This document shows positions 1 through 57,179 of a stretch of 64,000 nucleotides of DNA, in pieces. Made by a program: the position numbers and the translations under genes. Each line of letters starts with the position of its first letter. Position 1 is the first letter of the stretch. Origin of the DNA: Turritopsis dohrnii (Eukaryota > Cnidaria > Hydrozoa > Anthoathecata > Oceaniidae). The stretch spans positions 1,240,001 through 1,304,000 of the forward strand of contig BQMF02000045.1 in assembly GCA_027922465.2 (NCBI GenBank), given 5' to 3'. Below the pieces are notes generated by a model. The model was not told the origin of the DNA and ran no database searches. It saw nothing but the letters and a program-made list of their open reading frames with translations.

Positions 1-245
1 AAGACTGTTATAAGCCTACTATAAGAGAATAATTTACGTCTCAATACAGGATCTAGAATTTTACCAATATGTTTAATCCTCGATTCAAAGCGTACTCTGT
101 CAACAGCAGCCTCTATCCAGTTACTTCTACGAGATTCACAAGCAGAGATATAATGGACCATTACTTTATCATTAAAAGTAACCCTTTTTGTATCTTGATG
201 AGAAAATATAATATCATCATCTGAGGATTCATCATCATCGAACAT
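1..245 (-). CDS. PPP1R15/GADD34-like PP1 regulatory protein, partial (C-terminus beyond window)
   Basis: An ATG at 245-243 on the minus strand opens a frame that stays open for 81 codons to the window edge. The first residues are acidic (Asp/Glu/Ser-rich). Then comes a PP1 docking motif of RVxF type, K-R-V-T-F at residues 20-24, followed directly by a hydrophobic strand (VMVHYI, 28-33). After an Arg pair (39-40) come a conserved Trp (43) and an A-A-x-D-R-x-R-F-x-x-R-I block (46-57). This order (RVxF, hydrophobic strand, Trp, DRxRF) is the signature of the C-terminal PP1/eIF2-alpha module of PPP1R15 (GADD34/CReP) and of compact viral versions in herpes simplex and African swine fever virus. 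The inferred role is to recruit PP1 to dephosphorylate eIF2-alpha and keep translation going under host stress or antiviral shut-off. The gene diverges from the 598 gene across a 352-bp repeat-bearing spacer. The 3' part is not visible. Confidence 0.75.
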   Translation of the reverse strand, partial: MFDDDESSDDDIIFSHQDTKRVTFNDKVMVHYISACESRRSNWIEAAVDRVRFESRIKHIGKILDPVLRRKLFSYSRLITV

Positions 246-323: not shown

Positions 324-575
324 TTTTGTCAACAAACTTATAAGAAGATAGCAAACTCTTATACAGCAAATTTCAACAAACTTATAAGAAGATAGCAAAC
401 TCTTATACAACAAATTTCAACATAATTATAAGAGGACAGCAAACTCTTATACAACAAATTTCAACAAAATTATAAGAGGACAGCAAACTCTTATACAACA
501 AATTTCAACAAAATTATAAGAGGACAGCAAACTCTTATACAACAAATTTCAACAAAATTATAAGAGAGTATAAGA
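324..575. repeat. 44-bp direct repeats in divergent promoter region
   Basis: The motif agcaaactcttatac recurs at 350, 394, 438, 482 and 526, exactly 44 bp apart, with partial units on both sides (about 5.7 copies). The three right-hand copies are nearly identical. Each unit carries CTCTTATA and its inverse TATAAGAG, so every unit can fold back, and TATAAG sequences are repeated. The array fills the spacer between the leftward gene starting at 245 and the rightward gene starting at 598. It may be a shared enhancer/promoter or a replication or packaging signal; the sequence does not decide which. Confidence 0.85.
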
Positions 576-597
576 AAATTATAACAAACACAACAAA

Positions 598-1242
598 ATG
601 ATAGAATATGTCAACTTCGTGTTATTAAGCATATTGCTGATCTCGCTATTTTACTTTTATTTTGTGTTAAAAAAATACCTCTCTCTAATAAAAATGGTGG
701 AAACAGCGATCGATAATTTAATCAACCAGAGTTATGATGTTCCGGGTGAATTTCCACCTTCAGATGGTAAAAGACAAAAATTACTCGAGTGTGTCTTAAC
801 CGGTAATAGCAAGCTATACTTAGGGAAAATGTACACGGAAGAGCAAATTAACAAACTCAAAGATGAAGAGGTAGAAAAACTTTTTAGTATCTACGAGGCT
901 AAACTATCAGGTCAAATGGTAAAATCCTTGGGGAAATCACTGATACGTATTTATTCCATGGGGGCTTGTGCAACGTTAGGAATAAACAATCAAGAAGCGC
1001 TAAGCAATGACCTGGAAACTGACCCCTTCTTAAACTCTGCCCTTCAAAGATTTACATGTGACTTATATTATAAATTCGGCTCATTATTAGCACCACTCAG
1101 TGTTGGACTTATTACCGGGAGGCATTATATCAATGAAAGGAATTTAAATAAATCCGATGATAATATAAATACAGTAGATAATAAAAATGTCAGAAGAACA
1201 GACTCCCATTCAAGTGACAACGAAGAACCCAAAAAAGGTTGA
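598..1242 (+). CDS. membrane-anchored element protein, function unknown
   Basis: The predicted protein has 214 residues. A strongly hydrophobic segment at about residues 5-27 looks like a signal anchor. A mostly helical body follows, including a conserved-looking stretch around residues 98-125 (YEAKLSGQMVKSLGKS onwards) and a second hydrophobic patch near 160-175. The C-terminal 35 residues are polar and probably disordered. The ATG at 598 follows a TATA-like ATTATAAC about 20 bp upstream. This is the first of four rightward genes, and its end overlaps the next gene by 56 bp in another frame, a virus-like economy. From memory, similar proteins recur beside this polymerase type in cnidarian genomes; I know no function for them. 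No enzyme motif is visible. A role in a particle or a host membrane is only a guess. Confidence 0.75.
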   Translation: MIEYVNFVLLSILLISLFYFYFVLKKYLSLIKMVETAIDNLINQSYDVPGEFPPSDGKRQKLLECVLTGNSKLYLGKMYTEEQINKLKDEEVEKLFSIYEAKLSGQMVKSLGKSLIRIYSMGACATLGINNQEALSNDLETDPFLNSALQRFTCDLYYKFGSLLAPLSVGLITGRHYINERNLNKSDDNINTVDNKNVRRTDSHSSDNEEPKKG

Positions 1243-1531
1243 AGCGGGTAAGAAGTTGGCGGAATACAACCGTAAAAAACGAGAACAATTAAAACAAGTG
1301 TCACCTCAAAAAGAAATGGAGAAGCCTGAGGCCTCTCTCACCAAACCAAATGAACAACCCATGAACTACACCTATGGTGTAGGTGGAATAATAGCTCTCG
1401 GTTTAGTTGGTGGATTTGCTTATTTTGTGTATAAAAAGAGAGAGCAAATATTACCCCGTGGGTCACCATCCACCCCCCTTCCACAAAAATCTAAAATACC
1501 AGTGAAAATCAATAAACATGAAATGGAATAA
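1187..1531 (+). CDS. small single-pass membrane protein, basic N-terminus
   Basis: The predicted protein has 114 residues. The first 55 are very polar and basic, with a KNPKKVEAGKKLAEYN-type stretch (about residues 13-28) that I remember as a recurrent signature of this element family. A Gly-rich membrane segment at about 62-82 (YGVGGIIALGLVGGFAYFVY) is followed by a short basic tail. The topology is most simply one membrane pass with a long basic domain on one side, which could bind nucleic acid or another element protein. The start codon lies inside the 3' end of the preceding gene, so the two are probably made from one transcript. No catalytic motif is visible and the function is unknown. 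Confidence 0.7.
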   Translation: MSEEQTPIQVTTKNPKKVEAGKKLAEYNRKKREQLKQVSPQKEMEKPEASLTKPNEQPMNYTYGVGGIIALGLVGGFAYFVYKKREQILPRGSPSTPLPQKSKIPVKINKHEME

Positions 1532-1558: not shown

Positions 1559-1786
1559 ATGGACAAGAAAAGTATTGTCAACGATTTATATCACGCATCA
1601 GTCGTCTGCGTTTTCGCTATCGGCTACTCTATGCTAGGAAAAAAGGTGTTAAAAATGACACCTCCCTCTATTCAAAAGTTCGACTTGGAAGATACGGGAA
1701 AACTAGTTGCCATTATCGCCGCTAGTGAAGTGACAAAGGACTACTTAATCAAACAAAAGATTTTGCCTGAAAATATCAATATCTAA
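1559..1786 (+). CDS. small hydrophobic element protein, function unknown
   Basis: The predicted protein has 75 residues with one hydrophobic segment (about residues 10-30, including ASVVCVFAIGY) and an amphipathic C-terminal half containing the motif FDLEDTGKLVAIIAA. The ATG at 1559 lies directly after TATATATAACAAAC (1545-1558). This is the clearest example of the TATA-like leader seen before several genes here. The stop codon is two bases before the next ATG, so it is tightly coupled to the 1789 gene. I recall short proteins of this pattern beside the same polymerase in cnidarian genomes, but no function is known to me. Confidence 0.7.
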   Translation: MDKKSIVNDLYHASVVCVFAIGYSMLGKKVLKMTPPSIQKFDLEDTGKLVAIIAASEVTKDYLIKQKILPENINI

Positions 1787-1788
1787 AT

Positions 1789-2211
1789 ATGGCTTCTATC
1801 GCAATGATGTTGGGTGGAGCTTTGGCTAACGCTTTGGCTTTCACAGGATCAAGCTATCTGTTTTCAAGTTTATCCAAAGACAGAATCGATAGGGAAAGAA
1901 AACGTCATGATCTGGCCATAGAAAAATTACAAAAAGCACAGATTGAATGGCAGCAAAAACGACAGGAAAGGATCGATTTTATCAATAAGCAGCTCATGCT
2001 CGAAAAGAAGGCTGATTCAAAATTCGTAGAACTAAATGATGCAATGAGAGAGTACAATAGAGTATTTAGTAATCATCTTGAACCGCTACCACGAGAGCCT
2101 GTATTGAGCGACTTTTATACACCGAGTCATGATCAACATGAAAGAGAATTGGCTTTTATAGCTCTGAGTATGCTCGGTATTGGTGGAATTGTGTGGTATT
2201 TTGAAAGATAA
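1789..2211 (+). CDS. coiled-coil protein with hydrophobic ends
   Basis: The predicted protein has 140 residues. The N-terminus (about 3-27) is Ala/Gly-rich and hydrophobic. A long charged helix follows (about 30-80, RERKRHDLAIEKLQKAQIEW and onward), likely a coiled coil. A Pro-containing linker with LSDFYTPS comes next, and a second hydrophobic segment lies near the C-terminus (about 121-137). Two hydrophobic ends around a coiled coil suggest a membrane-bound structural or scaffold protein. It is the last gene of the 598-2211 unit, and a hairpin follows 29 bp after the stop. Function is unknown; a role in membrane remodelling or particle assembly is inference. Confidence 0.7.
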   Translation: MASIAMMLGGALANALAFTGSSYLFSSLSKDRIDRERKRHDLAIEKLQKAQIEWQQKRQERIDFINKQLMLEKKADSKFVELNDAMREYNRVFSNHLEPLPREPVLSDFYTPSHDQHERELAFIALSMLGIGGIVWYFER

Positions 2212-2280: not shown

Positions 2281-3573
2281 TTACCGTCTAGTCACGAGGT
2301 ACGTATAGATCATCCATCCAACCCCTACAATCAGAGCCCATAAATTTTGACTCAACCAACCTACAACTTCTTTTGCTCTAGTGAGTATCCACGATACGAT
2401 AGACCCAATTATTCCCGGTAAAGCCTCTGCCGCTTTAGACGCCAATCTACCTAGAAGTGATGCTAACGCTTTTAGTTTATTTTTTATCCATTCCTTTCCA
2501 CCGTCCTTTTTATCACCACCTTTGTCAGGATTTTGTGAAGAGCTTCCAGCTGCTGATCCTCCCGGTAACAAAGCTTCCACAAGGACACCGATAGCCATAC
2601 CAAACGCTGTCAGAATGCTAACGATTGTTATACCTTGTTCGCGGAATAGTGTTCGTATCCTTTCACCTAATGTGGTATCTTTGTCGAGGACTTTAGCAAT
2701 GGTTTCTTTGATGCTCGTAACTTGACTGTTTAGTTTGCCTTTGAGAATATTAATGTTCTCTTTCCTAGCTTTCAACTCTTCACGTAATCCCTCCATTCTC
2801 TTTTCAACCTCTTTTCGCTGTTCGTCCGTGTATGTTGCATCATTTTCCATTTCTTCCAACTTGTTTTTCTCCTTATCGATATGCTGTTCTATTCGAACCT
2901 TTTTCGCAACCTCTTCCTGAAGACCTCCTCGTATGTTTCTCAACGCTTTATCCAATCCTAACAGCTCACGCACAGGATATTCAAATAGATCACCGGTCTG
3001 AGTTGTTTCATGATCGACCGATTGTTGTCTAAGCGTTGAAATTAAATCTTCCTGTACTGTTCACCACATCACCAGACATATCTTCCAACTCTACATCGGT
3101 TGCTGTTGTGATTTTAGATGTCGAAGGAAGGTCATTCTGCTATTTTATTAAGTACAGCTGCCTGTCTGGCTGAAAATTTGCTCTTAGGTATATCATACCC
3201 TAAACTACGTAATCTGTTCTTACCCAATATGTCAGCTATAGTACCGGTAGCCCTTAGTCTTCCATTGTTTGTCAATGGTTTGCTACCTGTCTTTGTAGTA
3301 TAATTCACCATCTCTAATTTCAAACAGATCGGTATATAACGTCTCAGGTTTTGGCTGGAATTTTTCGGATAATCTATCATACAGCCCTTCAACTAGTTCT
3401 TTCAAAACTCTAGTATGCAGACTGTGACCACCGAATGATGTTTCTCGTTCACCTGATGTATGTATCTGTGCACCCGTACGGTCACCGGTCGGTATGAGAG
3501 GAAACGTCTCATCGGTTGTTTCATCTGTCGTCATACCTTGTTCTCCAAAAGGATCTATGTCAATGTCTGTCAT
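2281..3573 (-). pseudogene. frameshifted coiled-coil/membrane protein gene (about 430 codons)
   Basis: Three minus-strand pieces in different frames appear to be one gene. Piece 1 runs from the ATG at 3573 to a stop at 3285-3283 and is acidic and Thr-rich. Piece 2 (about 3330 to 3132) carries RLRATGTIADILGKNRLRS and ARQAAVLNKI. A short open run bridges about 3140-3060 in a third frame. The last piece has no ATG at its start and runs to 2281: a long charged coiled coil (about 100 residues), a hydrophobic segment GITIVSILTAFGMAIGVLVE, a Gly/Ser/Lys linker and two amphipathic or membrane helices up to the C-terminus. The frame changes fall near 3290, 3135 and 3055. The long membrane-plus-coiled-coil C-terminus matches, from memory, an uncharacterised protein that recurs next to this polymerase type. 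Function is unknown. Sequencing or assembly error could explain some of the frameshifts. Confidence 0.6.
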
Positions 3574-3633: not shown

Positions 3634-4227
3634 ATGAGTTTTAAAATTTATCCAAAACTACCCACTGCTCCTGAGGATTTGAATGAGCAGGAAAAGTTTA
3701 ACGCAAGCGTAATAAATTCTGAGTTTGAAGAGTTGATAAAACTTAAGAACAAGTTTAGCATCAAGCTCAAGAGATACAACAAGGCGATAGAACGATCGAT
3801 GCTACTAAATGCTAGCTCAAGCGCTATAACCATCGGCTCTGGCATCGGTTCAATTGCAACAGGGGCTACTATTATCGGAATACCTATTTCTGCAGGATTA
3901 GGTGGCGTAGCCTTAGCCGGCTCTATCTGTACCGGACTTACCACAGCTGTCATCAAAAGATATCAAAAGAAAGTAGAAAAAGTGATAAAATTATATGATA
4001 TTGTTACATCCTCAATTTCTGTCTTCGAAACTAACATAAGTCAGGCGCTGACTGATGGAAGGATCAATTACAAAGAATTCCAGGTTTTACAGGGAACATA
4101 TTACAAAGCTTTAGAAAGACTCAGTTCTACAGATAGAAAGATGGAGACTGAAACCCAAAATCAATTTCAAAAAAGTTTGATGGTAGAACTTCAAAACCTG
4201 AAAAAATCCATAAACGAAAATGGTTAG
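3634..4227 (+). CDS. membrane-hairpin protein with coiled-coil flanks
   Basis: The predicted protein has 197 residues. It begins with a Pro-rich YPKLPTAPEDL segment, then a charged helix (about 20-57). A long Gly/Ala/Ile-rich hydrophobic block follows at about 62-108 (AITIGSGIGSIATGATIIGI and onward). It is long enough for a membrane hairpin. A helical C-terminal half contains a DGRINYKEFQVL motif. The pattern (PKLPTAP start, Gly-rich hairpin, DG-I-x-x-x-EF) agrees with a protein family I remember from cnidarian copies of this element. No function is known to me. It is the first gene of a two-gene rightward unit and starts just after a TATATAAC box. Confidence 0.7.
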   Translation: MSFKIYPKLPTAPEDLNEQEKFNASVINSEFEELIKLKNKFSIKLKRYNKAIERSMLLNASSSAITIGSGIGSIATGATIIGIPISAGLGGVALAGSICTGLTTAVIKRYQKKVEKVIKLYDIVTSSISVFETNISQALTDGRINYKEFQVLQGTYYKALERLSSTDRKMETETQNQFQKSLMVELQNLKKSINENG

Positions 4228-4297: not shown

Positions 4298-4618
4298 ATG
4301 GAATTCCCAACAGTTGATACATTTGAACAAACAATCAAAAAGCAAAACAAGGAACAAATGGCAGAGATCATAAAGTGGCGAGAGCTACCTGAAAACGTGA
4401 TTTATCATGTTAAATTTTTTTCTACAAAAGCTATGTATGCAGAGTTGAAAGACGGAGCAGGAAATATATATAAGGTGTGGTTGCCTGAAAGACTTTTCAT
4501 TGAATTAAATGATTATGGTTGGAGCTCTAGAGAGGCCTTTGTCAGACCGAAAGGTCTCAAACAATCTCAAAAGAATTCAGAAAGACAATTCTTTGATTAT
4601 GACATTATATGGCGCTAG
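4298..4618 (+). CDS. small soluble element protein, possibly nucleic-acid binding
   Basis: The predicted protein has 106 residues without a membrane segment. After a charged helix come alternating strands (VIYHVKFFSTKAMYAELKD, GNIYKVWLPERLFIEL) and a C-terminal YDIIW. The strand-rich layout and size would suit a small beta-barrel such as an OB or SH3-like fold. This is inferred from pattern only. TATAAAG (about 4267) and TATATAG (about 4289) precede the ATG. A hairpin follows the stop by 18 bp, and the integrase gene ends just beyond on the other strand. An accessory role in replication or integration is possible but not shown. Confidence 0.65.
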   Translation: MEFPTVDTFEQTIKKQNKEQMAEIIKWRELPENVIYHVKFFSTKAMYAELKDGAGNIYKVWLPERLFIELNDYGWSSREAFVRPKGLKQSQKNSERQFFDYDIIWR

Positions 4619-6186: not shown

Positions 6187-7236
6187 ATGACTTCACGAAA
6201 TACTGTTGTTCAATTAAAAGCTATCGCGAGAGAACGCGGTCTACATGGCTACTCAAAACTCAGAAAAGCTGAGTTGATCGAATTATTAGAAAACACACCT
6301 GTCCGGCCTGTTCCACTACCAAGACCTACTAGGTTTAACCGACCTGTTCCACCACCAAGACCTGTTCCAATTATTCCTACCCAACAAGATATGGATTTGT
6401 TTGAACAGCAAGAAATGGCAAAAAATAGACCTCAGGTGAAAAGTAAGTTGGATGAGTTGAAGGAGTGGTTAGTAAATCACACACCTAAACCTATTCGTGA
6501 GAAAGTGAGTAGCGCTTTTAGAGAGATGAAGAAGAAGATTCTCAATCTCTATAAGAGAAAGAATGATGAAGATGAGGTTATCAATCAGCGAGAGGATGAA
6601 AAAGCGTTTGTTCCTGTTGAAACAGCGTTTGATAATGCATATAGGAGATATAGGATTAGTGGTGTGAGAGAAACGAACACCTCACGAGAGAGGGATAATG
6701 TCGATGCTTTTTTTGAAAAGGTTAAACCAATATTAATTGATACGATAACAAGAGTATTTAATGATCTAAATTCGACAAAGATACAAACAACAACCTGGAT
6801 TAGGTGGAGAAAGGAAGATTTAAGCGATCCTGAAGCGACAATCTATGTTGATAAAGCGTTCAATTCTAAAATGACGGAAGTTTTTCAAGAAAGTGATTTG
6901 AATCAAACGCTTGATGAGATGTTTGCTCATATGAAGACGCAGATTGAAAACCCAAAGCTACCTAACTCTGGTTTTGTTATTGAAAGGATTTTGAATATTG
7001 ATATTGACTTTCATAAGCTAAAATTAACGAGAGGCAGCTCTTATTTACCGCTACCTAAGAATTTCAGTGGTAAGTATTCGATAATCAATCCTAAAAAGAT
7101 GATGAAGAGTGTTTTAGATGGGCTATTATCGCTGCACTTAACCATGAACAGATTAAATATAATCCTGAACGAATCTCAAACCTCAAAAAGCATGATAACT
7201 ATAATTGGGACGATTTATCGTTTCCAATGTCGCTAA
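6187..7236 (+). pseudogene. N-terminal part of the SAP-DNA polymerase gene, frameshifted
   Basis: The frame starts with a SAP motif (residues about 5-40, TVVQLKAIARERGLHGYSKL then RKAELIELLE), followed by a Pro/Arg-rich linker (41-70) and about 230 residues without a recognisable catalytic motif. At 7093-7097 there is a run of five A (codon 303). After it the frame runs into unrelated sequence and stops at 7236. In the frame used by the following polymerase ORF, the bases from about 7095 to 7227 are open and read sensibly (including DDEECFRWAII). The two ORFs are therefore best seen as one gene of about 1,290 codons that has lost one base, equivalent to a -1 shift. Ribosomal slippage here is possible but the heptamer is not canonical. 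Confidence 0.7.
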
Positions 7237-10070
7237 ATAAAATAGATTTGTTTGAGAGGAGGAACCCTGATATCGCTGTGCATGTTTTAACAAAAGACGA
7301 TATAGATGGTATCTATGTGTGCCGTAAATCGAAGTATTTTGATCGTGAGGAGACAGCTATTTTGTTTTTAATATGTGAAGAAGAGAAAAGACATTATATC
7401 GCTGTAAAGAACTTGAGCGGTGTCTTGAGTAAGGTCAACTCGAAGCATGAACATAAAGAGCATTATTGTTTAAATTGTCTCTATGGTTTTTCAAGCGAGC
7501 GAGTTAGAGATGAACACTTTAAATATTGTATAAATAATGATGTGGCTATGATTGAAATGCCTGAAGAGGGTAGTAAAGTTAAATTTCATGATGGACAATA
7601 TCAATTCAAGGTACCTTTTATGATGTATGCAGATTTCGAGTCTGTTCTCGTAAGGTGTGAAGATACGAATAAGAAAGAACAAAATGAATCTTTTATCGAA
7701 AAAGTAACCACTCACGTACCATCAGGTTTTTGTTGTTATTCTAAATTTGCGTATGGTAAAGTATCGAATCCTCTAAAACTGTATCGAGGTGAAGATTGTG
7801 TTGAGGTATTTGTTAATCATGTGGTAGAAGAGGTGAAAAGATTATATAACATGTTTCCTGAAAAAGAGATGGAACCTCTAACAAAACAAGAGTGGAAGAG
7901 TTTTTCAAATGTAGACAAGTGTCATATATGTATGAAAGAATTTGGTGGTGATGAAAACCTTAGGGTAAGAGATCATTGTCACTACACTGGGAAATATAGA
8001 GGAGCTGCTCATAAGAAATGTAACCTTAGATTCAAGATACCGTCATATATTCCTATAGCTTTCCACAATCTGAGCGGTTATGATGCTCATCTATTTATCA
8101 AAGAACTCGCGAGACAATATGGACATGAAACATTGAGAGCGATAGCTGAAAACAAAGAAAAGTATATTTCATTTAGTCTAGACGTAAAGGTTGGTGAATA
8201 CATTGACAAAGATGGAAAAACTAAAGACAAAAAGATACAGTTGAGATTCATCGATTCCGCTAGATTTATGATGAGTAGTTTGGATAATCTATCAAAGAAC
8301 TTGAGTGATAATCAGTGTAAGAATTTTCGAAGATACTTCAAGGATGATGATACTTTTAATCTGATGAGAAGAAAAGGAGTATACCCATATGAATACATGG
8401 ATTCTTTCGAAAGATTTAATGAAGCGAAACTACCACCAAAAGAGGCATTTTATAGTAAGTTAAATTTAGCTGAAATAAACAAGAAAGACTATGAACACGC
8501 TCAAAAGGTATGGAATATGATGAAAGAGAAAACGCTTGGAAAATATCATGACCTTTACTTATTAACTGACGTATTATTACTAACAGATGTGTTTGAGACT
8601 TTTAGAGAGACTTGTCTAGAGAATTATCAATTAGATCCTGCACATTTTTACACTGCTCCTGGTTTATCATGGCAGGCGTGTTTGAAACAAACGGGGATAG
8701 AGTTAGAATTGTTGAGCGATCTAGATATGTTTATATTTATGGAGCAGGGAATTAGAGGAGGTCTTGTTCAAGCTGTTCAGAGATATGCTAAAGCAAATAA
8801 TAAGTATATGGGAGATCGATATGATCCTGCTAAAGAGAGTAGTCATCTTCAATATTTGGATGCGAACAATCTTTATGGTTGGGCGATGACACAAAAGCTG
8901 CCGATAGGTAATTTCAAGTGGGATGATCCTAATAAATTTACATCTGAAAGGATTAGTGAGTTGGTTGAAGAAAATGGTGACAAGGGTTATATATTAGAGG
9001 TTGATGTTAAATATCCTATAGAACTTCATGACTCGCATAATGATCTTCCATTTATGGCTGAAAGGAAAAAGATTAATAAAGTAGAAAAACTTGTTCCATG
9101 TTTATCAGATAAGAAGAATTATATTACACATATTAGAGCTCTTGATCAGGCTTTGAAACACGGATTGATTCTAGAAAAGGTTCATAGAGTAGTAGAATTT
9201 GATCAAATCGCTTGGATGAAACCATACATTGATTTTAATACACAACTAAGAACACGAGCCAAAAACGAGTTCGAGAAAGATTTTTTCAAGTTGATGAATT
9301 GTTCAGTTTTTGGAAAGACAATGGAAAATATTAGAAAACACAAAGATATAAAGTTGGTTACGCGTAAACAGCAATATGAAAAATTAGTTATGAAACCAAA
9401 CTTCAAGTCGGCCACTTATTTTAGTGAATCGTTAATGGGAGTAGAGATGGGTAAGATAAAGGTTGTTTTAAATAAACCGATTTATATGGGACCAGCTATC
9501 TTAGATTTGAGTAAGATAGTAATGTACGAGTTTCATTATGACTATATGAAGTCGAAATATAGAGATAATCTTAAATTATTATATATGGATACGGATTCGT
9601 TAGTCTATCATATTAGAACTGATGACTTTTATAAGGATATTGCGGATGATGTAGAAAAGAGATTTGACACGAGTGGATATAGCGTTGAAGATGGAAGACC
9701 TTTACCAATTGGAAAGAATAAGAAAGTTCTTAAATTAATGAAGGATGAGTTGGGAGGAAAAATCATGACTGAATTTGTAGCGTTGAGACCAAAGACTTAT
9801 GCGTATAAACAAATCGATGAAAAAGAAGGTAAGAGGTGTAAAGGTGTAAAGAAATGTGTTGTTAAAAAGACGATTGGGTTTGATGACTACAAAGAGTGTT
9901 TATTCAAAAATAAGAATGTCTACAGAGAACAAATGATTATTAGATCGATTAAACATGATGTATATACAATAAATCAAAATAAATTGGCTCTTAATGCGGA
10001 TGATGATAAACGAATAATTTTAGATGATGGAATTACGACATTAGCCAGAGGACATTATAAACATATATAA
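7227..10070 (+). CDS. protein-primed family B DNA polymerase with embedded HNH-like module
   Basis: This 947-residue ORF has the complete set of family B motifs. They are Exo I (YADFES, about 134-139), Exo II (FHNLSGYD, about 279-286), Exo III (YHDLYLLTD, about 439-447), motif A (DANNLYG, about 545-551), motif B (NCSVFGKT, about 690-697), motif C (YMDTDS, about 785-790) and the KTYAY block (about 855). Between Exo I and Exo II (about 232-265) lies a Cys/His module, CHICM...RDHCHYTGKYRG...HKKC, resembling an HNH/treble-clef zinc site. The long insertions around motif A are usual for protein-primed polymerases that copy linear genomes of Polintons, adintoviruses and relatives. The ATG at 7227 is probably not the true start: the same frame is open upstream and joins the SAP-bearing frame through a one-base defect at 7093-7097. 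No stop interrupts the polymerase domain. A hairpin lies about 290 bp after the stop. Confidence 0.93.
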   Translation: MSLNKIDLFERRNPDIAVHVLTKDDIDGIYVCRKSKYFDREETAILFLICEEEKRHYIAVKNLSGVLSKVNSKHEHKEHYCLNCLYGFSSERVRDEHFKYCINNDVAMIEMPEEGSKVKFHDGQYQFKVPFMMYADFESVLVRCEDTNKKEQNESFIEKVTTHVPSGFCCYSKFAYGKVSNPLKLYRGEDCVEVFVNHVVEEVKRLYNMFPEKEMEPLTKQEWKSFSNVDKCHICMKEFGGDENLRVRDHCHYTGKYRGAAHKKCNLRFKIPSYIPIAFHNLSGYDAHLFIKELARQYGHETLRAIAENKEKYISFSLDVKVGEYIDKDGKTKDKKIQLRFIDSARFMMSSLDNLSKNLSDNQCKNFRRYFKDDDTFNLMRRKGVYPYEYMDSFERFNEAKLPPKEAFYSKLNLAEINKKDYEHAQKVWNMMKEKTLGKYHDLYLLTDVLLLTDVFETFRETCLENYQLDPAHFYTAPGLSWQACLKQTGIELELLSDLDMFIFMEQGIRGGLVQAVQRYAKANNKYMGDRYDPAKESSHLQYLDANNLYGWAMTQKLPIGNFKWDDPNKFTSERISELVEENGDKGYILEVDVKYPIELHDSHNDLPFMAERKKINKVEKLVPCLSDKKNYITHIRALDQALKHGLILEKVHRVVEFDQIAWMKPYIDFNTQLRTRAKNEFEKDFFKLMNCSVFGKTMENIRKHKDIKLVTRKQQYEKLVMKPNFKSATYFSESLMGVEMGKIKVVLNKPIYMGPAILDLSKIVMYEFHYDYMKSKYRDNLKLLYMDTDSLVYHIRTDDFYKDIADDVEKRFDTSGYSVEDGRPLPIGKNKKVLKLMKDELGGKIMTEFVALRPKTYAYKQIDEKEGKRCKGVKKCVVKKTIGFDDYKECLFKNKNVYREQMIIRSIKHDVYTINQNKLALNADDDKRIILDDGITTLARGHYKHI

Positions 10071-10357
10071 GAGGTAAGAGGTAAAAAAAAAACAAACAAA
10101 ATAAAAACAAGATAAACGAATTATATATGATACCTATTGACTTTGAAGATCTTTTTTTTTGACTGCATCGATGATCTGTGTGTGTCTGTGTGTTATATGT
10201 TTTGTTAGCTCATTTATATTATAAAGTTTAAACTGCTACAAACTGCTTTTTACTACATTTTTATGATATTGTTTACATTTATGAGTAATTTGTGGTTATA
10301 ATAATAAAAAACTGTTATTTGAGAATTTTGTTATGTTATGTAATCAAATATAACACG

Positions 10358-10384
10358 TTTCATAACTCGTATCGCGTTATGAAA
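10358..10384. terminator. hairpin downstream of polymerase gene
   Basis: TTTCATAAC (10358-10366) pairs perfectly with GTTATGAAA (10376-10384) around a 9-nt loop. It could be the 3' end of the polymerase transcript, matching the hairpins after other units. It could also belong to the element terminus, which I could not place. Confidence 0.35.
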
Positions 10385-10421
10385 ACAAAGATCTTATATG
10401 ATGATAATATTAGCTATAGTA

Positions 10422-10460
10422 GGGAAATTCCCGAAATCATATGATTTCTGATGACGTCAT
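10422..10460. promoter_or_regulatory. perfect kappa-B-like and CRE palindromes
   Basis: GGGAAATTCCC at 10422-10432 is a perfect palindrome that fits the NF-kappa-B consensus. ATGACGTCAT at 10451-10460 contains a perfect CRE/ATF site. They are 18 bp apart, just beyond the polymerase gene. The sites are seen directly; any function is unproven and no start codon of a recognised gene follows. Confidence 0.3.
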
Positions 10461-13400
10461 AGTTTTGCCCTAGAATCGGCACTTTCCTATCTCTGTCCTC
10501 AATGAACATCATGAGGTGAATACATTAGTAAACTTTGTCGATTTTTTCATAAACAGTGCGATTTATCAAAAAAAACTTTTAAATTGTTATATAGGTACAC
10601 ATTCTGAATGGTTTGAACATAACTTTTTAAGGGAGGTAAGCTTTAAGGGGAACTAAACTTCAAAAATCGCAAGTTCGCTTTCTTGCAATATATGAAACAG
10701 TTTTAAAAGTGATGAAAGTCAATTTCTGAATTGTGAAACAATCATTTTTCGCTCCTATACCATTTAAAGTTTTTTTCCTAAACATGTCTCCATGGCAACA
10801 TGGCATGGAAACGACATACAAATATGTAAATTACTGAGAGTGATTTAATGATACATTGTTAGAAGCTTGTAGATAGGGTGGTAAATAAATACAGTTGCCA
10901 AAACAGTAAAGGAATTTTGTTGTCATTGTTTCGTCGGCAAGAGTCTAGGTCTCTATTATTATTGTCACTAGGGTGAATTTCGTTTAACCGTACGTCTAGT
11001 AAACAATTCTAAAGTTTCTTTTCTTTTTCTGATCTCCATTTATAGGTTTCTCAGAATGAAACAAAAGAAACCTGTATCAAATGTTTCACGTGTAAAGGAA
11101 CCAATATCTTTTCAAGGAATTAAACGAGAAACTATTAAGCATATAGATAGCTTATTCATCATGTTATCTTGCTTAATTGAATCTGCGTTTCTACAAATGA
11201 ACGTCACTTTCGATCAAAATTATTATTTTCGGCATAAATATTTAATGACTGTGTGAATGAACGAAGCTTGTTTGCAATGAAACTAAAAATGAAATCCAAG
11301 CAATTCAAAAAGTTGTTATCATTTTTCGTCGAAATTGACAAACCTATAATTACTTTCTGTGGAACTCTCATAAAGGTTTCTTATGGTGCCACAGAGAATA
11401 TCAGTTTCGTTTTGTTTTGTTTTCCCATCTACAAAAACTCCTCTTCCTGCCACAAATTAATAGGTTGGTTAGTTGATGCTAACTGAACCAACGGCATGTT
11501 TATTTACTATGCAGACTATCACTTTGTTTTTCTCCTTCATAATCTGCAAAAGCGTGACTATACTAAAGTGAGTAAAACAATAGAACTGACGTAATTCAAT
11601 AGAGAAATTCCATCGCTTTTGAAATGAAAACTCAAACATGTTTGAGTTATCTTTTTTAAATGATGGTTCAAAATGACGGGTACTTTTCGTCTGTTGACGG
11701 ATGAAATACAATAGAATGCCTAGTGGTTTAACTTTTACCTCGATTACTCTTCTCAAAACCCATGATCAATTTAAGATCTAAATTCGTAAATCGAGTTAAT
11801 GTAAACAGATCTTTCGAACAAGAAAGCTTAGGAGTCAAAAAAGGATTGCATTTCTGAAAAAACTGATTCTTTATTACCTTATTACACTTTATGCTGACCT
11901 CAGAACTTATATATTTACTTTCTGAGGTGGATATTGTATCTACGAAGCTACAGAAATACAATTTACTCCCTAACAAATGCTGATTGCGAAAATATTGATA
12001 GATGAACGACTAACGATTCATACATTAAATTTATAATTGTGGTTGACGTTGTTTTTACAAATTTTTTCGTTGTGTTCGTTATTTGTAACGCTCCACAAAA
12101 ACATAATAACTATGAAAAATATTTAACATTAAAAGTATTGAAAATTGCGAAGCAAAATGTTTAGTTCACAAGAAGAATATTCACCAGAAAAAAGGAATAT
12201 GATGACTATGAGACAAGTTTTTTGTATTGATCTAAAATTGCCGAAAAACGTTCGGGATGGTTAAAATTTTAAATTGTAGATAACGAGTTGAGTTTTTACT
12301 TTATTATAAATAGTGAAACTTTTTGTAAATATACTGAAATCTGGCTATAATTTTTAGGTAATCTGGTACCAAGGTTTGGAATGAAAATACATAAATACTT
12401 TCAAATAGCTTTTAATGATGTCATTATACATAATTGAAACACTTTTTAGTCCTTGTAAACCCCATCATGACTAATTTTTTCTAACTGCTGAAGCTACACA
12501 TGATAGCACAACATGTCTGTTTCATTTTCCAAGCGGCCCTATATTTCCACAGAATTGTCTGTAGGATGCTCTCCTATAATTATTGCCATAATTACCACTC
12601 CTAAGGTCTTATGTAAAAGCTTTCACTTTGATATTGAGAAAAAATTTATATTTGTAATAAACAAAGTAATTTTGTGAGAAATGAGAAAAGAGACATTGTG
12701 CTGCATGTTCGCAAGTTGCTGTTTAAACAGAGATCGCTTGCTTCTACCAAAGAAAGTTATTTAATAACTTTCTTTGAAAAAAAAACAGCTGCAAAAATTT
12801 TGAAAATTGAATCTTTTAGTTGTAAATTCGTTTTAATAAATGAAAGATCCGAAATGGATTATGTCTAACCCTATTCCCATATCCTGTCTAGTTCTGATTA
12901 TATTTTTTGTTATGATCACGTGATCATAATATTTACAATTTTCATCCATCAATAGACTCTTTAAATGATCATTTAAAAAATGTCATTTTAAACTGATCGT
13001 GTATTTTAGGCGTAACACTTGAATACAACTAAGTTCTTAAACACTTTTGCAGGGAAGTATGAGACATTTAAAACGAAAACGCCTTTTCTTTGTGCATCTC
13101 GTCTTTTAGTGGCCGGATGATAAAACACTTTTTCATTTCCATTAACGAGTTCGTCTTTCGATAACATTTGGTCCAGAATGATGCACCGCCTCAAATAAAC
13201 CTTTATTGTTCATCCATTTCATCGGATGATACGCTTTGGATTGTTTTTCTTCTCCTATGTTTTTTCTAAGACAAAAACCAAAGCTGATCATTATAAGATG
13301 GAAAGAATTAACACTTCATAAATTTTTAAATCCTAACTTCTAACATAAAATTCTAACGCACGTGCTCTTTTCCTGATGAAGCAACACTAAAACTGTGAAA

Positions 13401-22004: not shown

Positions 22005-23270
22005 TCAAATGTCAACTCGTGCGCTGCGCCATTGCCATGTGACTGCCCCTTCCATATTGAAATACTCAGTAAATTCCTCTCGAATAGCCTTCGCTTGATT
22101 GCTTGATCGATTGCCAAAAATATCATTTGCAATTGGAAACCAGGTATCACTTGTAGTATCGCTCCTCCAAGCTCCTTCTGTGATTTCTCCTCTATCACTT
22201 TCTTGATCAACAAGACCTGGAGGCAAATCAACTTTTCCCACGGAGCTGTTACTCCTTTGCCAGTTATGCAAAGCAATAGCTGCCATTGTTATATTGGTCA
22301 CCTTTTCTGGTTCGAGTGCTATTGGACGTCGAAATACACGCCATCTGTTGGCCAGTATACCAAAACCATTTTCGGATATCCTTCGCATTCTTGACAGGCG
22401 ATAGTTGAAAATGCGTTTTTCTAAAGTTAAACCTTTTTGTGGATATGGTTTCATCAAATATCTTTTAAGCGGAAATGCATCGTCACCAGTTATAACAAAC
22501 GGAACATCATTAGCACGTCCTGGAAGGTTTTGTAGAAATGGCATGTTCAATGTTCCATTTTCCAAGGCTTTCTTTAGCTTACACTGGTCCCATATTCCTC
22601 CATCTGAGTTCCTGCCGTTTACACCTGCTTCAGCATACAAAAATTCATATTCTGGGCCAATTAAAGCCATTAAAACAACGCTGTCGCTCCCTTTATAATT
22701 TCTATGACGTGAACCCGAATTATGAGGTTGTTGAATTACGATGTGTTTTCCGTCAAGTGCACCGCATCCATTTGGAAAATTCCAACGCTCGTTAAATTTG
22801 TGAGATATTTCAATCCACTGAGTCTCAGTTTTTGGTGTCTGTAGGTACTTGAGGCCAAGTTTTTTGATAATGATATCGCATACTTCTGCAACTGCCTCTG
22901 ATATCCGTTTTCGTGATATTCTGAATTGAAATTCCAGCGATCGCAACGTTTCATCCGTGGCTAGGTATCTCAATGTAAGACAAATTAACTCCGGAGGAGA
23001 TACAGATTTTCTCATAAGAGTGTCCTCTTTTTGTAGATCTTCCGAAAGAAGGTCGACTAAAAACATAAACTGCGTGTTGTTCATACGGATAAAATCTCTG
23101 CATTTATTTGGATCGTATCTTACTTCTTGAAAAATTGTGTGATACAATCCAAGATCTTCTCGTTTTAACAGCCATGGCTTAACTCAACATTGTCTCTCTG
23201 TTGACTTTTTTACATTTTCATCTTCCTCTAAAAGAAGCAGAGCTAACACCATTTCTTCGTACGCGGCCAT
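22005..23270 (-). pseudogene. PIF/Harbinger DDE transposase (HARBI1-like), one nonsense codon
   Basis: The frame from the ATG at 23270 to 22005 (422 codons) is broken only by a TGA at 23186-23184 (codon 29), where relatives normally have Trp before the V-x-P-W-L motif, so TGG to TGA is likely. Downstream, about 390 codons are intact. They carry the helix-turn-helix region (ISRKRISEAVAEVCDIIIKK) and the catalytic acids in GALDGKHI, VITGDDAFPL and the RRISENGFG motif. This is the DDE nuclease that cuts and inserts the transposon. The open part has no ATG close to its start, so translation would need a non-AUG or internal start. The partner gene at 20550-21671 points toward it. Confidence 0.88.
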
Positions 23271-31431: not shown

Positions 31432-34400
31432 TCAAATTAACTTCTTCCTCTTCCTTGAAATCAAAATCTCCCGAATCTTCTGCCAGATCTTCAAAAATCC
31501 CTGGAAAGTGAAATATAATATTAGAAACGAGATGGGCGTCAGTATTGCGTCAATTCCATCGTAGATCTTTAACACAGACATAATTGATTCATCGTTATCT
31601 ATTCTGTAGACGTACAAAAATGAACGTAGCGTGTTCACACCTGCAAAAGTAATTAAAAGTGAAAGAGAAACTGATTCAAGTTGATTAACCAATTCGTCTT
31701 TGTATGGTTTTAATTGAAGTTGACCAAGCAAGAACAAAATCAAAAGCGGAAATATAAATGACAGTCGAGAGATAGGGTCGATGCAAAACACTACCACACA
31801 TGCAATGAGTAATCTTTGATAAAGCAACCACGAATGCCAGTACGAGATGTTATTTCTATATGGTTGCTCAAAAATGTAACTGATTGCTGTTTTTAATTTA
31901 TTCTCTTCAATATGGACGTTGCAAACGTCACTGCAGAGTTTCCACACGAAATAGAACGGTACGGTTGCAGGGATAAGCATGAAGATGAGAAATCGTTCAG
32001 AGGATATGTACTGTGAATTTAAGAGATGTAATGATAAAAACAAGGAAAGCGGAAAAGGAACAACCCATAAAGCAAGAAATGAGGATGCAACATATTGCGT
32101 AAATCCCCAACATTTCATTTCACTGAATATGTAAAGGACATCGGCATTGCCGATAGTTATACAGTGAATCATAGTCAAACAAAACGTTGACATGTTTTTA
32201 TATCGCATTGCAAGTATGCGTAACAAGCAAGAGTAACATCGTGTTAGGAATGATATGTTGTCTGGTTGGTGTCGTGACGCGTAAATATCATGGTTTTCAA
32301 GATTATCTGAATTACTTATGTCTTCTGGAACAGCGGGTTGGAGGTTTTCCTGTCCTTCTGCAATCTCTACATTTACCAACGCTCTTTTTGAATTCTTACG
32401 TATGAACATCACATGCACTGATATAGCTAATATAAGGACAGGAACAACCATGCCAATAGTAAAAAATAGATCCTTGACAACGTATTTTTGGAAATCGTTA
32501 AAAGTTGATGACGGGCAAAAATAGCCAGAAAGTTTGATGAAATCTAAATTAAATACATTTTCCAGGAAGGTGCTTATTGATGATTGAGAATACTTGAAGC
32601 TCAAATCAATGGTTATCAACTGTTTCAACTGATAAAAGCCAACCAGTATGTTAAATATTCCACTCCAGCGACATTTATCTTCTTCTGGTTCATGGGAAGG
32701 TGTTACTTCATTTGGCAATAAATGCCCTCTGCTTTCGTCATTAATAGGATTAGTTGAACTGTATCTTTTTAGCTCAATACTTTCAATATTTATTTCCTCT
32801 TTTACTGTGTCTCCTTTGGGGGGGTTGCAACATTTTAAGGCATGAAAGATTTTTTTTAAGAGATCAAATAGTGTTTTCAGTTGATCTAAGTATCCAAGAA
32901 CAAGAACATATAATAAAGAGGTTAAAACGAATAATAGCCAAAAAATGGCTGGGTGTTTACAGCTGAATGCAGGCTTGCAGTTGGGTGAAAAGTAATCTAC
33001 ATAATACCCTTCTTGGCACCTGCTGCATAACATTCCAATGCGGTATGAATTACATGTATTGTAAGATTGACATGCAACAGTAGTTTTGGAGCAACAATAA
33101 CCATCGGGACAATGGTAAAACTTAACGTTTCCAGTGGATACATTAAGTAAGCCCCAATAATTATCGTTGCTTAATATTCTGTCAATACACGTTGCACCAC
33201 TGGGACATTTTTTACAAATTTTTTTTGGAATTCCGTTCATGGTCCATGTCGTTGTACTTCTGGTATTTCGGTATAAGAAATAAACTGGAATCTCTGATGA
33301 AAATTGTCTTTTTTCAAGCAATGTTTCCGTATTATATTTTTTGTTTAATGAAAAATTAGTGTTTCGATCGGTGATGGTGTACGAGTCTTTCTTGCATGGC
33401 TTGCAAAAATACTCAAAACGAAAGATGTCTGTTGTCTTAATATCGTAGTAAGGAATATTGTTTTCTGGGCATGATAAAGTTGAATCAGTAGAGTTAATGT
33501 TGCTTGAAATGTCTGATTTTATTTGAATTTCTATTACAGGTAGTTCCGACATCACTTTCTTCAAATGAATGTTGACATGATGTATTTCGATGTTGGTAAA
33601 TTCATCTCCCTTAATTATGATTGATGGTTGTTTTTTGCTAAAAGAAATTATCTCCGTATTCGTTAAATTGATCGAACTAATGGATTCCCTGAAATTTTGG
33701 AAGTCTATAGCATTTTTAGAAACTTTGAAAAATGAATTTTGAATAGAGATGTTAGAGTTTAGGGCTCTAATGCCTTCGTCGCAGCTGCTACTTAGGGAAA
33801 TAGCTACAGCATCACATTCCTCCAATTGAAGTGCCATTCCAACCTTCGAGTAGCGGATACTTAGTTTCTCTATCCGTATATAAGCATTTCTTGTTTCTAC
33901 TGCAGTGTCAAATAATACATTCCTTAATTCAATGTTTCTTAAAAGTATTATTTGAAAAGTTATTGAGCTTTCTATTGACTTGACCCTATGCATCATGATT
34001 CTTACGTCATCGATCGTTTTAATATTAAACCAATCTCTTTTGTATTTCAAAATGTTTTCAAGTGTTTCGTTCATAATAAACCTTATTCGATCCCTTGTTT
34101 TCGTTACAGCAGAAAATGATTCATCTTCAGTCTGGTTAGTTGTAACTGTGTAGAAATGTGAATCTAGATCATGTAAGGAATCGGGTGAACTAAAAAGAAC
34201 TTTTGTTGTTTCAGAATTCTGAAAATTCACATTAGACATGATGGTTTTCTGAACTTTATAAAGTTTAAACATTTCCTTATTTGATATCATGTTATTTATA
34301 AAAATACCAGACAATGACGCTAACTTTGAATCAACTATCTCTATGCAACCATCACTCTTTGTGTTTGTGATTGAAATTTCCGAAATATTGTTGTTGTCAA

Positions 34401-37020
34401 CTTTAGTTAGATGTATGAAAGCGTTATTTACATTTGTCTCTTTGATGTGGAGCATTGATATAATCAATGACGTAACTGATTCAAAATAAACCGCATGTTT
34501 CCCTGCTGTTCCTTTTTCCAAGTTTATCTCCGTCATAATAATATGTGTTACGTTAAGAAAAAATAGATATGTTGTACGGGTTTTTATGTTTTTGATATAA
34601 AACTTGGATAGAAATACTGATGTTTCTTTAAAAAAACTAACAGCATTCACTCCCACTGATCCATTTGTAAAGCTTATCTCCGTCATATTAGTATTATTTA
34701 CTTGTCTAAAATATAGATATCTGTACTCGGCGTTTATGTTTATAATATGAAACTTGGATAGAACTGCTGATGTTACTTCATAAAAAGCAACAGCATCCAC
34801 TCCCACTGATCCATTTGTAAAACTTATCTCTCTCATATTAGTATTAATTACTTGTTTAAACCATAGATACATGTACCTGGCGTTTATGTTTATAATATGA
34901 AACTTGGATAGAACTGCTGATGTTACTTTAGAAAAATAAACAGCAACCGCTCCCACTGATCCATTTCCAAAGCTTATCTCCGTCATATTAGTATTATTTA
35001 CTTGTTCAAACTGTAGATATCCGTCCCTGGCGTTTATGTTTTTAATATGAAACTTGGATAGAACTGCTGATATTACTTTACCAAAAACAACACCATCAAA
35101 TGTTGTTCCGTTTTCCAAGGTTATCTCCATCAAACTGATATTATTTATTTCCTTAAAATGTAGATACACACTGTTAACTTTTGTGTTTTTGATATGAAAC
35201 CTAGATAGAAATGCTGATGTTACGCGAGCAATTCTAACCCCGCTTTGCCTTACTGAGCAGTTCTCAAAGTTTATCTCAGTCATTTTGAGGTAATTAACAT
35301 TATATAAAAAAATGCCTGAATATACTATCGAATGTTCGATAGTAATGTTTGTTATGGATACTGAGTTCTGATTTTTAGTTTCAATGATTTGATTGCAATT
35401 CACATTTCTAACGGTAACATCCGAAAAAATGAATGTGTCATTTATGGCATGGAACAAATCTAACTTTGCAAGAACATGTCCTATTGTTAAATTGTGAATT
35501 ATACATTTTGAGTTTGTGGCATTAAAAAGTCCTCCACAAGTGACATCGCGGAACAAGACGTCATTAATTTCAATATTGCTCACATTCTCAGCTTCAATTA
35601 TGTATCGTTCCGTGTTCATTTGCCCTTTGAATTGACATCGATTCAAAATAAATTTTTCAGAATTCATGATATTGAATACTGAGTCATTAAAAATTTTGGA
35701 GTCAGTAATTTTTAGAATTGAATTTTTGTGTTTATCAAGACCTGACACTATTATTGCTGCTGAAGTAACAGTAGCATTGTGGATGGAAATGATTACCTGA
35801 TTAAATGATTGTGACTGATCAGTTAGATTCACTTTAAGGAAAACTTTCTGCGTCATGCTCTTAATGTAACAATTAGTAATGTTGATGTCTAATGCTTGAA
35901 ACTTACCCCTTGCTAAAGTTACATTAAAGAAATTGATACTTTCTATAGCGATGTGAATATTCGTTGAATTCTCCTTTACATCAAACACAGGTATTCCTTT
36001 GCTTGCAGTAATTGTTGGCACGCAGCCATTCTTATTCATTCCCTTAATGTGGAAGGTAAAACTAGACAAAAAAATAGTTTCATTAATCTCATACCTATCA
36101 CACCGCTCATTCATAAGAACTATCACATCATTCGTTTCCACTTTTTGGTAGTAGGTATAACCCAACGATCGACAAGGTTCAGTTTTGTTCCCACATTTTT
36201 TGGTATCTGCGCCATTAACTGATACGAAATGAACCTGGAATTCATACACTAGAAAAAAGAATGCGTTAATCTATTTTGTGAAAAAAACATTTTGATAATA
36301 CAACAATGTACTTTGCAGGATTCGTGAAAAATTCAATAATTTAGGTGTTCTTTCCAGACACTGTTATCATACACATTGAAATAAGCTCGGTCACACTCAG
36401 TACTAGCGGACATTCTTATAATCGTTTGCAAATCTTTTTTAGTTTTTTGATAGGAATCTCAAAAGCAGACACATTATTTGCTTTAAGGAATAACTCAGTA
36501 GCGCCTTTTGTGATCCTTGCCACCGCATTCTGAGAAAACCAGAACGTTTTACGTGGTAAAATGGATATTAGATATATTAAGCATATCGGTTATTAACGTG
36601 AATGCTGGTAACCAATACCATACTCCTATCCAGAAATTCATAAATTGTCTCATTGCAGCCCTTGCCTCATTACAGTCTTTATAATTATGACGTAAATCAT
36701 CAATGTAGCAGAATTTCGTAAAATAATTTCCCTGGAGTATCATCATTCTTTGTTAATTCTCAAAATTATCAAAATTATCAAAATGAAAACGTAGAAACTG
36801 AAGAAGTAGAAACTGAGCCACTACTAACTCCAAAGTTGAATTCATTTTTTCCTGATATCGGGAACTACTAAAAAATTCGTTCTATTACGGGAAGGAACAA
36901 TTAGAAATAGCGTCAAAAAAAGCTCTTATTTCAAGAATAGCATGCGACAGTTTACTTACAGTTGATGAATGACAGGAGGATCCATAAAACCAACAGATAA
37001 ACCAAACGAAGTTTAACCAT
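31432..37020 (-). CDS. gene A: giant beta-helix/Cys-rich/multi-membrane surface protein (two exons)
   Basis: Exon 1 is 37020-36960 (ATG, 20 codons plus 1 base), ending in donor GTAAGT. It encodes a signal peptide (MVKLRLVYLLVLWILLSFIN). A 711-bp phase-1 intron ends with TTTTCTAG and exon 2 runs 36248-31432, for about 1,625 residues in total. After an N-terminal CGNKTEPCRSLGY motif, typical of the start of right-handed beta-helix (pectin-lyase-like) domains, about 900 residues of short strand repeats follow, rich in N-x-S/T sites, with a 50-residue tandem array inside. A Cys-rich region (about residues 985-1115: CKKCPSGATC, NDNYWG, CPDGYCC, CNSYRIGMLCSRCQEGYY) precedes about eight membrane helices and a conserved KPYKDELVNQLESVSLSLL block. 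The family is widespread in early animals but functionally uncharacterised to my knowledge; cell-surface recognition or adhesion is inference. Gene B is a paralogue. Confidence 0.85.
34560..35230 (-). repeat. 150-bp (50-residue) tandem repeats inside gene A
   Basis: The motif aacttggatagaa recurs at 34601, 34751, 34901 and 35051, exactly 150 bp apart, with a diverged unit near 35198. The coded unit is about 50 residues (VTSAVLSKFHIKNINAR... then NNTNMTEISFTNGSVG), equal to two beta-helix turns. The middle copies are nearly identical at the DNA level, which implies recent duplication or gene conversion. Confidence 0.85.
36249..36959 (-). other. phase-1 intron of gene A
   Basis: The donor on the minus strand reads T|GTAAGTAA at 36959 and the acceptor reads TTTTCTAG ending at 36249. 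The position relative to the protein is the same as in gene B. A 65-codon ORF on the same strand (36746-36549) lies inside but has no supporting evidence. Confidence 0.75.
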
Positions 37021-56700: not shown

Positions 56701-57179
56701 GCTATGTTGCTGCTGAACCAAATAGGTTAAAACTAGCGATTCTGGAACATTTTGAGCAACCATTTAGACACAATAGTAACGGAAACGTCATATGTTGGCA
56801 AACTTGGATGCTACTCCAAAGATTAGTTATCGCATGCGTGACCGTCCTCTTAATTAACCCTCTCTTTCGCTTAGCTTTGGTATCTCCATTAATGATTTTG
56901 TTTGCAGCAATCCAGTTAAAGGTAAAACCATACAAAGACCATCTTGTAAACCATCTTGAAGCATCTTCCTTGCTTATGTTATCTATTTTAGCAATATTTA
57001 ATTTGTTTCGATCGTTTCTATACGTACACAGTCCCAATAAGACAAGGGAGATAATACATATTTTGTACATCTATAATATCATGGAACAAATGCTTAACCC
57101 TTTGCTTGTTCTAGTTCTCTATTTTGTTTATGCAATATGTGAATTAATGTTCCACAAAGTGCAGAGGATTTTTCATTGA
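50737..57179 (+). CDS. gene B: giant beta-helix/Cys-rich/multi-membrane surface protein (two exons)
   Basis: Exon 1 is 50737-50809 (24 codons plus 1 base) and encodes a signal peptide (MSKIFQNVFVYFIIVLSIFF...). Donor GTAAGT is at 50810. The acceptor TTTTTATAG ends at 52335, and exon 2 runs 52336-57179, giving about 1,638 residues. The open frame extends upstream of 52336, but the splice site and the match to gene A show where the exon begins. The N-terminal CGNISYPCQSIGYAL motif starts a pectin-lyase-like beta-helix ectodomain of about 950 residues with many N-glycosylation sites. A Cys-rich segment follows (about 1035-1135: CKECPVEATC, NDNFWG, CPNGYCC, CNYHRTGTLCGKCTEGYF). About eight membrane helices come next, with KPYKDHLVNHLEASSLLML near the end, a block reminiscent of TRP-like and GCC2/GCC3-associated membrane regions. 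Role unknown; surface receptor or adhesion is inference. Confidence 0.87.
50810..52335 (+). other. phase-1 intron of gene B
   Basis: GTAAGT donor at 50810 and TTTTTATAG acceptor at 52335 give a 1,526-bp intron in the same position and phase as in gene A. It contains a short interstitial telomere-like run, TTAGGGTTAGGGTTAGG, near 51452-51470. Confidence 0.78.

Follow-up and report, generated by a model that had tools for sequence, protein, structure and literature searches.

The window analysed here is a 64,000-nucleotide stretch of Turritopsis dohrnii DNA (positions 1240001 to 1304000 of contig C45 in the 436-Mb assembly G000), and its left edge cuts through a leftward gene that we call R15a. 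Within the window, R15a is a single open frame on the minus strand (positions 3-245, with an ATG start at 245) in which the motifs KRVTF, HYIS, W43 and AAVDRVRFESRI follow one another in that order. Working from this fragment, the earlier note had recognized an RVxF motif (KRVTF), a hydrophobic strand, a Trp and a C-terminal block in the order of the PPP1R15 core. Extending the contig leftward completed the gene, which ends 4 bases past the window edge and encodes 82 amino acids, and the assignment held: the full-length protein is PPP1R15-like across the core, matching Pfam family PF10488 (PP1c_bdg) with an E value of 3.1e-7 (30.8 bits, cut-off 26.1; 3e-7 with the windowed fragment alone). A phmmer comparison with PDB sequences aligned it with human PPP1R15B (8e-6), ASFV DP71L (1.6e-4) and human PPP1R15A (0.18), and the PPP1R15B and DP71L matches are well beyond chance. 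The protein also has an acidic N-terminus.

R15a lies inside an element of ~14.9 kb bounded by terminal inverted repeats (TIRs) of 305 and 310 bp, the termini of which begin AGAGATAGG (Table 1). Read from the left, the element carries a 379-aa ORF on the minus strand, a 186-aa ORF (tentatively labelled penton, by position only), a 438-aa capsid-like ORF (MCP), an A32-type ATPase, R15a on the minus strand and a set of 44-nt repeats, followed to the right by TM214, TM114, small ORFs, an integrase on the minus strand, a Rho_N/SAP ORF and a PolB-like ORF. The capsid-like ORF matched PF16903 at an E value of 0.075, below the cut-off, and had no match among PDB sequences.

Table 1. Features of the element and of the remainder of the window (window coordinates unless another locus is named)
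Feature	Position	Strand	Basis or remark
Left TIR	L017:5197-5501, from C45:1235596, outside the window		Repeat comparison
A32-type ATPase	L017:8941-9543		PF04665, 2.1e-8
R15a, PPP1R15/GADD34-like, 82 aa	1..245 plus 4 bases to the left; L017:9598-9846 (9846 = window 245)	-	ORF, Pfam, PDB phmmer
44-nt tandem repeats	329..566		Between the divergent R15a and TM214 starts
TM214, N-terminal hydrophobic stretch (by eye)	598..1242	+	Conserved R15a neighbour; no Pfam match
TM114, hydrophobic stretch (by eye)	1187..1531	+	ORF; no Pfam match above cut-off
75-aa ORF	1559..1786	+	ORF; no Pfam match
140-aa ORF	1789..2211	+	ORF
189-aa ORF	2281..2850	-	ORF; Pfam, just weak coiled-coil-type matches
197-aa ORF	3634..4227	+	DUF4461, 27.8 bits (cut-off 24); RTX N-terminal match below cut-off
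g106, 106-aa ORF	4298..4618	+	Relative adjoins R15b in the rearranged subtype
rve-type integrase, 327 aa	4675..5658	-	PF00665, 7.5e-10
Rho_N/SAP-domain ORF	6187..7236	+	Fused with PolB in many listed relatives
PolB-like protein, 947 aa, endonuclease-VII-like region	7227..10070	+	120 listed relatives, 44-68% identical
Right TIR	10185..10494		88% identical to left TIR
Transposase ORF	22005-23147	-	DDE_Tnp_4, E 2.3e-27
Very long host ORF containing 150-nt repeats	31432-36249	-	
Very long host ORF	52146-57179	+	
Tandem array	57517-58614		46-nt unit, ~24 copies

Outside the element, the two very long host ORFs of the window look like members of a single family, with cysteine-rich regions and a membrane-like C-terminal part, and the transposase ORF is presumably of Harbinger type. 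Within the element, the 197-aa ORF may encode a membrane-active protein. Of 68 copies, 33 have 13-79 nt between the R15a and TM214 starts and the other 35 have 177-618 nt, often in 44-nt steps; the 44-nt array may be a variable-number region that holds the promoters of both genes.

The Rho_N/SAP ORF overlaps the PolB ORF in another frame, and because many listed relatives have Rho_N and PolB in one ORF, the two ORFs of this element look split. Identity as a family B polymerase comes by way of two relatives, P0060 and P0072, which match PF03175, the window protein itself being without a PolB Pfam match. Of 8000 candidates scored in the search for PolB relatives, 6873 reached E <= 1e-5, and the named relatives among the 120 listed included Hydractinia symbiolongicarpus (a hydrozoan, the nearest named), Chrysoperla carnea and one archaeal MAG. 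No adenain-type protease was matched among the element ORFs scanned, which included part of the small ORFs, and the one copy checked, that of the window, has no 6-bp target-site duplication (flanks ACTTTA and GTCCTC). The earlier note had called the carrier a Polinton/adintovirus-like element. Its TIRs, rve integrase, A32-type ATPase and PolB relatives bear out the first half of that name; as for the second, the definition passage of PMC11071296 describes an adintovirus by a PolB with an OTU-like domain and an integrase with a C-terminal chromodomain, and neither domain had a Pfam match in the element proteins. By that definition, the element is Polinton-like and not an adintovirus.

R15a recurs throughout the genome in the same setting. 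A search with the R15a protein (P0001) gave at least 150 matches (all scored, from 446 first-look candidates) that were 91-100% identical, without an internal stop, in frames of 83-98 aa, and a PF10488 search put 150 of 150 scored matches (413 candidates) over the cut-off; both lists favour intact copies and may include haplotype duplicates. In all 38 loci read from the R15 lists, including the window copy, R15a is flanked by the ATPase and TM214, with MCP in 37 and TM114 in 37 of the same loci, some of which lie at contig ends, and the same flanking was found in 14 of 14 further places from the PF10488 list, several of them picked for odd frame lengths. Since these 52 loci were chosen by R15 match, they are evidence of the position of R15a and not of its presence rate. 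It could be argued that the window, which holds just the edge of R15a, shows a host gene or an assembly artefact that stands beside the element by chance. This is already contradicted by the position of R15a between the ATPase and TM214 in 52 of 52 places and by a separate host candidate on contig C11, where no element genes were matched in its 3 kb, and we give it next to no weight.

For presence, we turned to the ATPase list (150 scored, 937 candidates) and picked by eye 20 copies that neither R15 list contained, passing over at least one more of this kind. The R15a core was uninterrupted in 17 (two pairs among these are alike in R15a); of the exceptions, L064 is without R15a, L067 has it partly replaced and L080 has it split between frames. 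The earlier note had called for the gene to be sought in sister copies, and there it proved to be recurrent. One locus, L011, was at first taken for a divergent subfamily on the basis of its ATPase (62%); this was dropped, as L011 has MCP, R15a and TM214 pieces that are nearly the same as in other loci, and an ATPase stretch near a contig end that contains stops.

Residue roles described in passages of PMC4394352, PMC8500838 and PMC5346070 were transferred to R15a through PDB and sequence alignments. On the predicted PP1 side are R21, V22 and F24 (RVxF), Y32 and I33, and R39, which corresponds to R15B R658; W43 corresponds to R15B W662 and R15A W582. On the predicted actin/eIF2-alpha side are R52 (R15A R591), F53 (R15B F672/R15A F592), R56 (R15A R595) and I57 (R15B I676), and LDPVL at 64-68 aligns with LSAVL of DP71L; actin or eIF2-alpha roles in PPP1R15/DP71L are attributed to R591, F592, R595 and LSAVL in passages of PMC8500838 and PMC5346070. 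The sole mapped contact that is changed is the counterpart of R15A Arg594, described as an eIF2-alpha contact in a passage of PMC8500838, which is Ser55 in the window copy; the counterpart of R612 is not placeable by alignment.

To follow these residues among copies, we took 72 loci and left out four in which R15a was absent, short or disrupted (L049, L064, L067 and L080). Across the 68 filtered copies, R21, V22, F24, Y32, I33 and R39 are identical in all, as are W43, F53, R56 and I57; R52 is present in 67, L64 in 63 (Ile in the other 5) and L68 in 66 (Ile in 2). K20, E37, R40, A47, D49 and R50 are also invariant, many positions outside the contacts are variable, and there are three stop codons within codons 61-79. 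Because the contact residues are kept, the mechanism of recruiting PP1 and G-actin and dephosphorylating eIF2-alpha is strongly suggested for R15a. KRVTF, Y32-I33 and R39 would dock PP1, and the C-terminal half (W43 onwards, with R52, F53, R56 and LDPVL) would bind G-actin and present PP1 to phospho-Ser51 of eIF2-alpha; dephosphorylation would then restore translation once replication of the element or particle production had triggered an eIF2-alpha kinase.

The same residues bear on whether R15a might recruit PP1, and perhaps actin, to a substrate other than eIF2-alpha, such as a virion, nuclear or signalling protein. The unchanged PP1 side in 68 of 68 copies, the Ser in place of the mapped eIF2-alpha contact R594 in the window copy and the many variable positions outside the contacts would all suit such a protein, but the counterparts of R591, F592, R595 and LSAVL, on the actin/eIF2-alpha side, are also largely kept, and we regard another substrate as unlikely.

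We also looked at how variation is distributed along R15a. Amino-acid variants avoid the 13 contact residues in the 68 copies (3 of 51 variants against 9.9 expected, P 0.006), residues that were taken from the papers after the per-position variation had already been seen, in a sample biased toward kept motifs by the 51 copies picked by R15 similarity. Taken separately, the 17 ATPase-picked copies gave 1 of 19 against 3.7 expected (P 0.09, not significant) and the other 51 copies 2 of 41 against 7.9 expected (P 0.009). After removal of rows with stops, more than 2 gaps or less than 85% identity, the dN/dS of R15a was 1.09 (0.42-4.05) in 65 rows with a synonymous diversity of 0.037, a value that replaces our first estimate of 0.87 and has too wide an interval to establish purifying selection on the whole protein; for comparison, the ratio was 0.17 (0.12-0.25) for the ATPase, 0.12 (0.07-0.21) for MCP codons 271-438, 0.26 for TM214 and 0.58 for TM114. 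By variant-frequency class, dN/dS was 1.17, 1.51 and 1.07 for R15a, common variants being no lower, whereas that of the ATPase falls from 0.79 through 0.28 to 0.15. We concluded that the R15a motif is held and that the remainder changes freely, possibly through an arms race, relaxation or recent spread. The divergence of R15a correlates with that of the ATPase at just 0.08, and recombination between copies may account for this.

These figures also invite the reading that R15a is relaxed cargo, a captured gene that was once useful, is now drifting and is still present since the copies are young and recombining. A dN/dS near 1 with a wide interval, the synonymous diversity of 0.037, the near-absent correlation with the ATPase, the 3 of 20 ATPase-picked copies in which R15a is missing, partly replaced or broken in frame and the P of 0.09 in the other 17 would each be expected of it. 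The deficit of changes at contact residues across all 68 copies, a sample weighted toward R15, and the invariance of KRV.F, W43 and R56 in 68 filtered rows argue the other way, as do two contigs, described below, in which an empty R15a slot is accompanied by a second R15 gene ~4 kb off. Drifting cargo seems to us improbable, rather more so than a different substrate.

Outside this genome, the R15a protein as a lone query for homologues returned none. A search of proteins with an R15 profile gave 36 matches among 859 candidates, 18 of which were read: 15 look by eye like vertebrate R15 exons (core identity to R15a of 35-43%), and P0155, P0158 and P0159 are short and unlike them (47%, 53% and 39%), all three below the PF10488 cut-off. 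P0155 (68 aa) and P0158 (78 aa), from ENA, are stand-alone R15-like cores like R15a, although they lie on short contigs and, unlike R15a, fall below that cut-off. Searches of viral contigs with PolB, the integrase, MCP, the R15 forms and a 21-nt repeat piece gave no confirmed match, and PolB had none among phage records. Against GTDB contigs, PolB matched eight loci titled as MAG contigs (L001-L008, in bacterial or archaeal bins), three of which (L003, L004 and L006) also had an integrase match; these contigs are probably eukaryotic contamination. The R15 profile did no better than noise on the eight loci, six of which, at less than 7 kb, leave hardly any room for R15.

Used as a genome query (150 scored of 418 candidates), P0155 had as its top matches a place on contig C105, a set of 12 places whose match contains a single TAA, and C11. 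Each of the four TAA places read, L085-L088, contains an integrase stretch, a relative of g106, an R15 gene, TIR-like pieces and the 379-aa gene, and they are a rearranged subtype of the element in which a second form, R15b, occupies another site. All four read through the R15b core without interruption. In three, the region ahead of it is either in another frame (L085 and L088) or separated from the core by a stop (L086); L087 alone has pre-core and core in one frame, a 147-aa ORF that matches PF10488 at 2e-6 (28.1 bits). Contigs C811 and C773 are the two with the empty slot: matches to the ATPase and to R15b lie ~4 kb apart, the ATPase-TM214 stretch has no R15a match, and the ATPase and R15b likely sit in one element copy. 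On C105 (L084), R15a is in its usual place and has an extra loop, AWDYAYRKSR. A similar loop occurs in R15b and in the host candidate, and in none of the other R15a copies read; the L084 protein scores 15.3 bits against PF10488, below the cut-off.

The candidate on C11 (L083), a frame of 345 aa from stop to stop, carries the core at its C-terminus, preceded by an acidic run. It had no Pfam match and weak matches to PDB sequences (R15A 0.0072, DP71L 0.017), and the PF10488 genome search, which listed element copies at the places read, brought up no recognizable host PPP1R15; with moderate confidence, we identify C11 as the PPP1R15 of the host. Its alignment with R15b spans 81 residues at 41% and takes in a pre-core SKYHxxCC. 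Core identity to P0155 is 0.53 for R15b and 0.46 for R15a; to the host candidate it is 0.43 and 0.40, respectively. In a rough unrooted tree built from 63 columns, R15a groups with R15b (88/73) and L084 falls beside R15a (96.6/86), the placement of the host candidate and P0155 being unsupported (53.9/60). Capture from some animal followed by movement between sites fits these observations best, and the SKYHxxCC stretch makes the Turritopsis host candidate a possible source. The R15b core is nearer to P0155, but its pre-core is common with the host candidate; the source may have been this host or another animal, and there may have been one capture or two.

Taken together, these results suggest, with a probability of roughly 0.76, that a high-copy Polinton-like element with a putative capsid gene has, among its regular genes, an animal-derived PPP1R15 core that counters eIF2-alpha phosphorylation. 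More tentatively, at somewhat less than even odds, an integrating Polinton lineage may have captured an animal PPP1R15, moved it between two sites and kept either form in response to an eIF2-alpha kinase defence set off by its productive phase. If so, R15a would be genomic evidence of Polintons as infectious viruses fighting the integrated stress response. A transposon-only element would have little evident use for a counter-defence gene, so its presence bears on whether Polintons make infectious particles; the PKR/PERK-type response and the infectious phase that the earlier note had proposed are possible and would be the boldest readings. Because a single genome holds many copies together with a candidate host gene, the capture can be dated and tested.

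In the open-licence literature searched, with subscription journals mostly outside it, none of the papers listed links PPP1R15, GADD34 or eIF2 with Polintons or adintoviruses. A term search of PMC11071296 gave no mention of GADD34, PPP1R15, eIF2, phosphatase, ICP34 or DP71L, and section 7 and the accessory-gene passages of PMC8097293 mention neither eIF2 nor a phosphatase.

The element resembles Polintons/Mavericks in its rve integrase, PolB relatives, A32-type ATPase and capsid-like ORF, and its TIRs fall in the size range given for vertebrate Mavericks in a passage of PMC8097293; it differs in having no protease match, no target-site duplication in this copy, a PolB with Rho_N and endonuclease-VII-like parts, and the added R15. 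R15a shares with PPP1R15A/GADD34 and PPP1R15B/CReP the RVxF motif, hydrophobic pair, Arg site, Trp, RxRF..RI helix and LxxxL in the same order, as well as PF10488. Those proteins exceed 600 aa, and the 82 aa of R15a, which is carried on a mobile element and has Ser as its R594 counterpart, leave no space for the eIF2-gamma-binding repeats or membrane segment of PPP1R15A/B. The short form of DP71L (70-72 aa) from ASFV, another virus with a captured core, is likewise a stand-alone core of nearly equal size, its PDB alignment with R15a running over residues 17-71, but it belongs to another virus lineage and has low identity, and the acidic N-terminus is R15a's. Captured PPP1R15 cores are also described, in a passage of PMC4394352, from herpesvirus (Herpes simplex ICP34.5) and a granulovirus (coGV-gp036); likened to R15a by description, without alignment, these too are PPP1R15 cores in DNA viruses, in exogenous carriers where that of R15a is Polinton-like.
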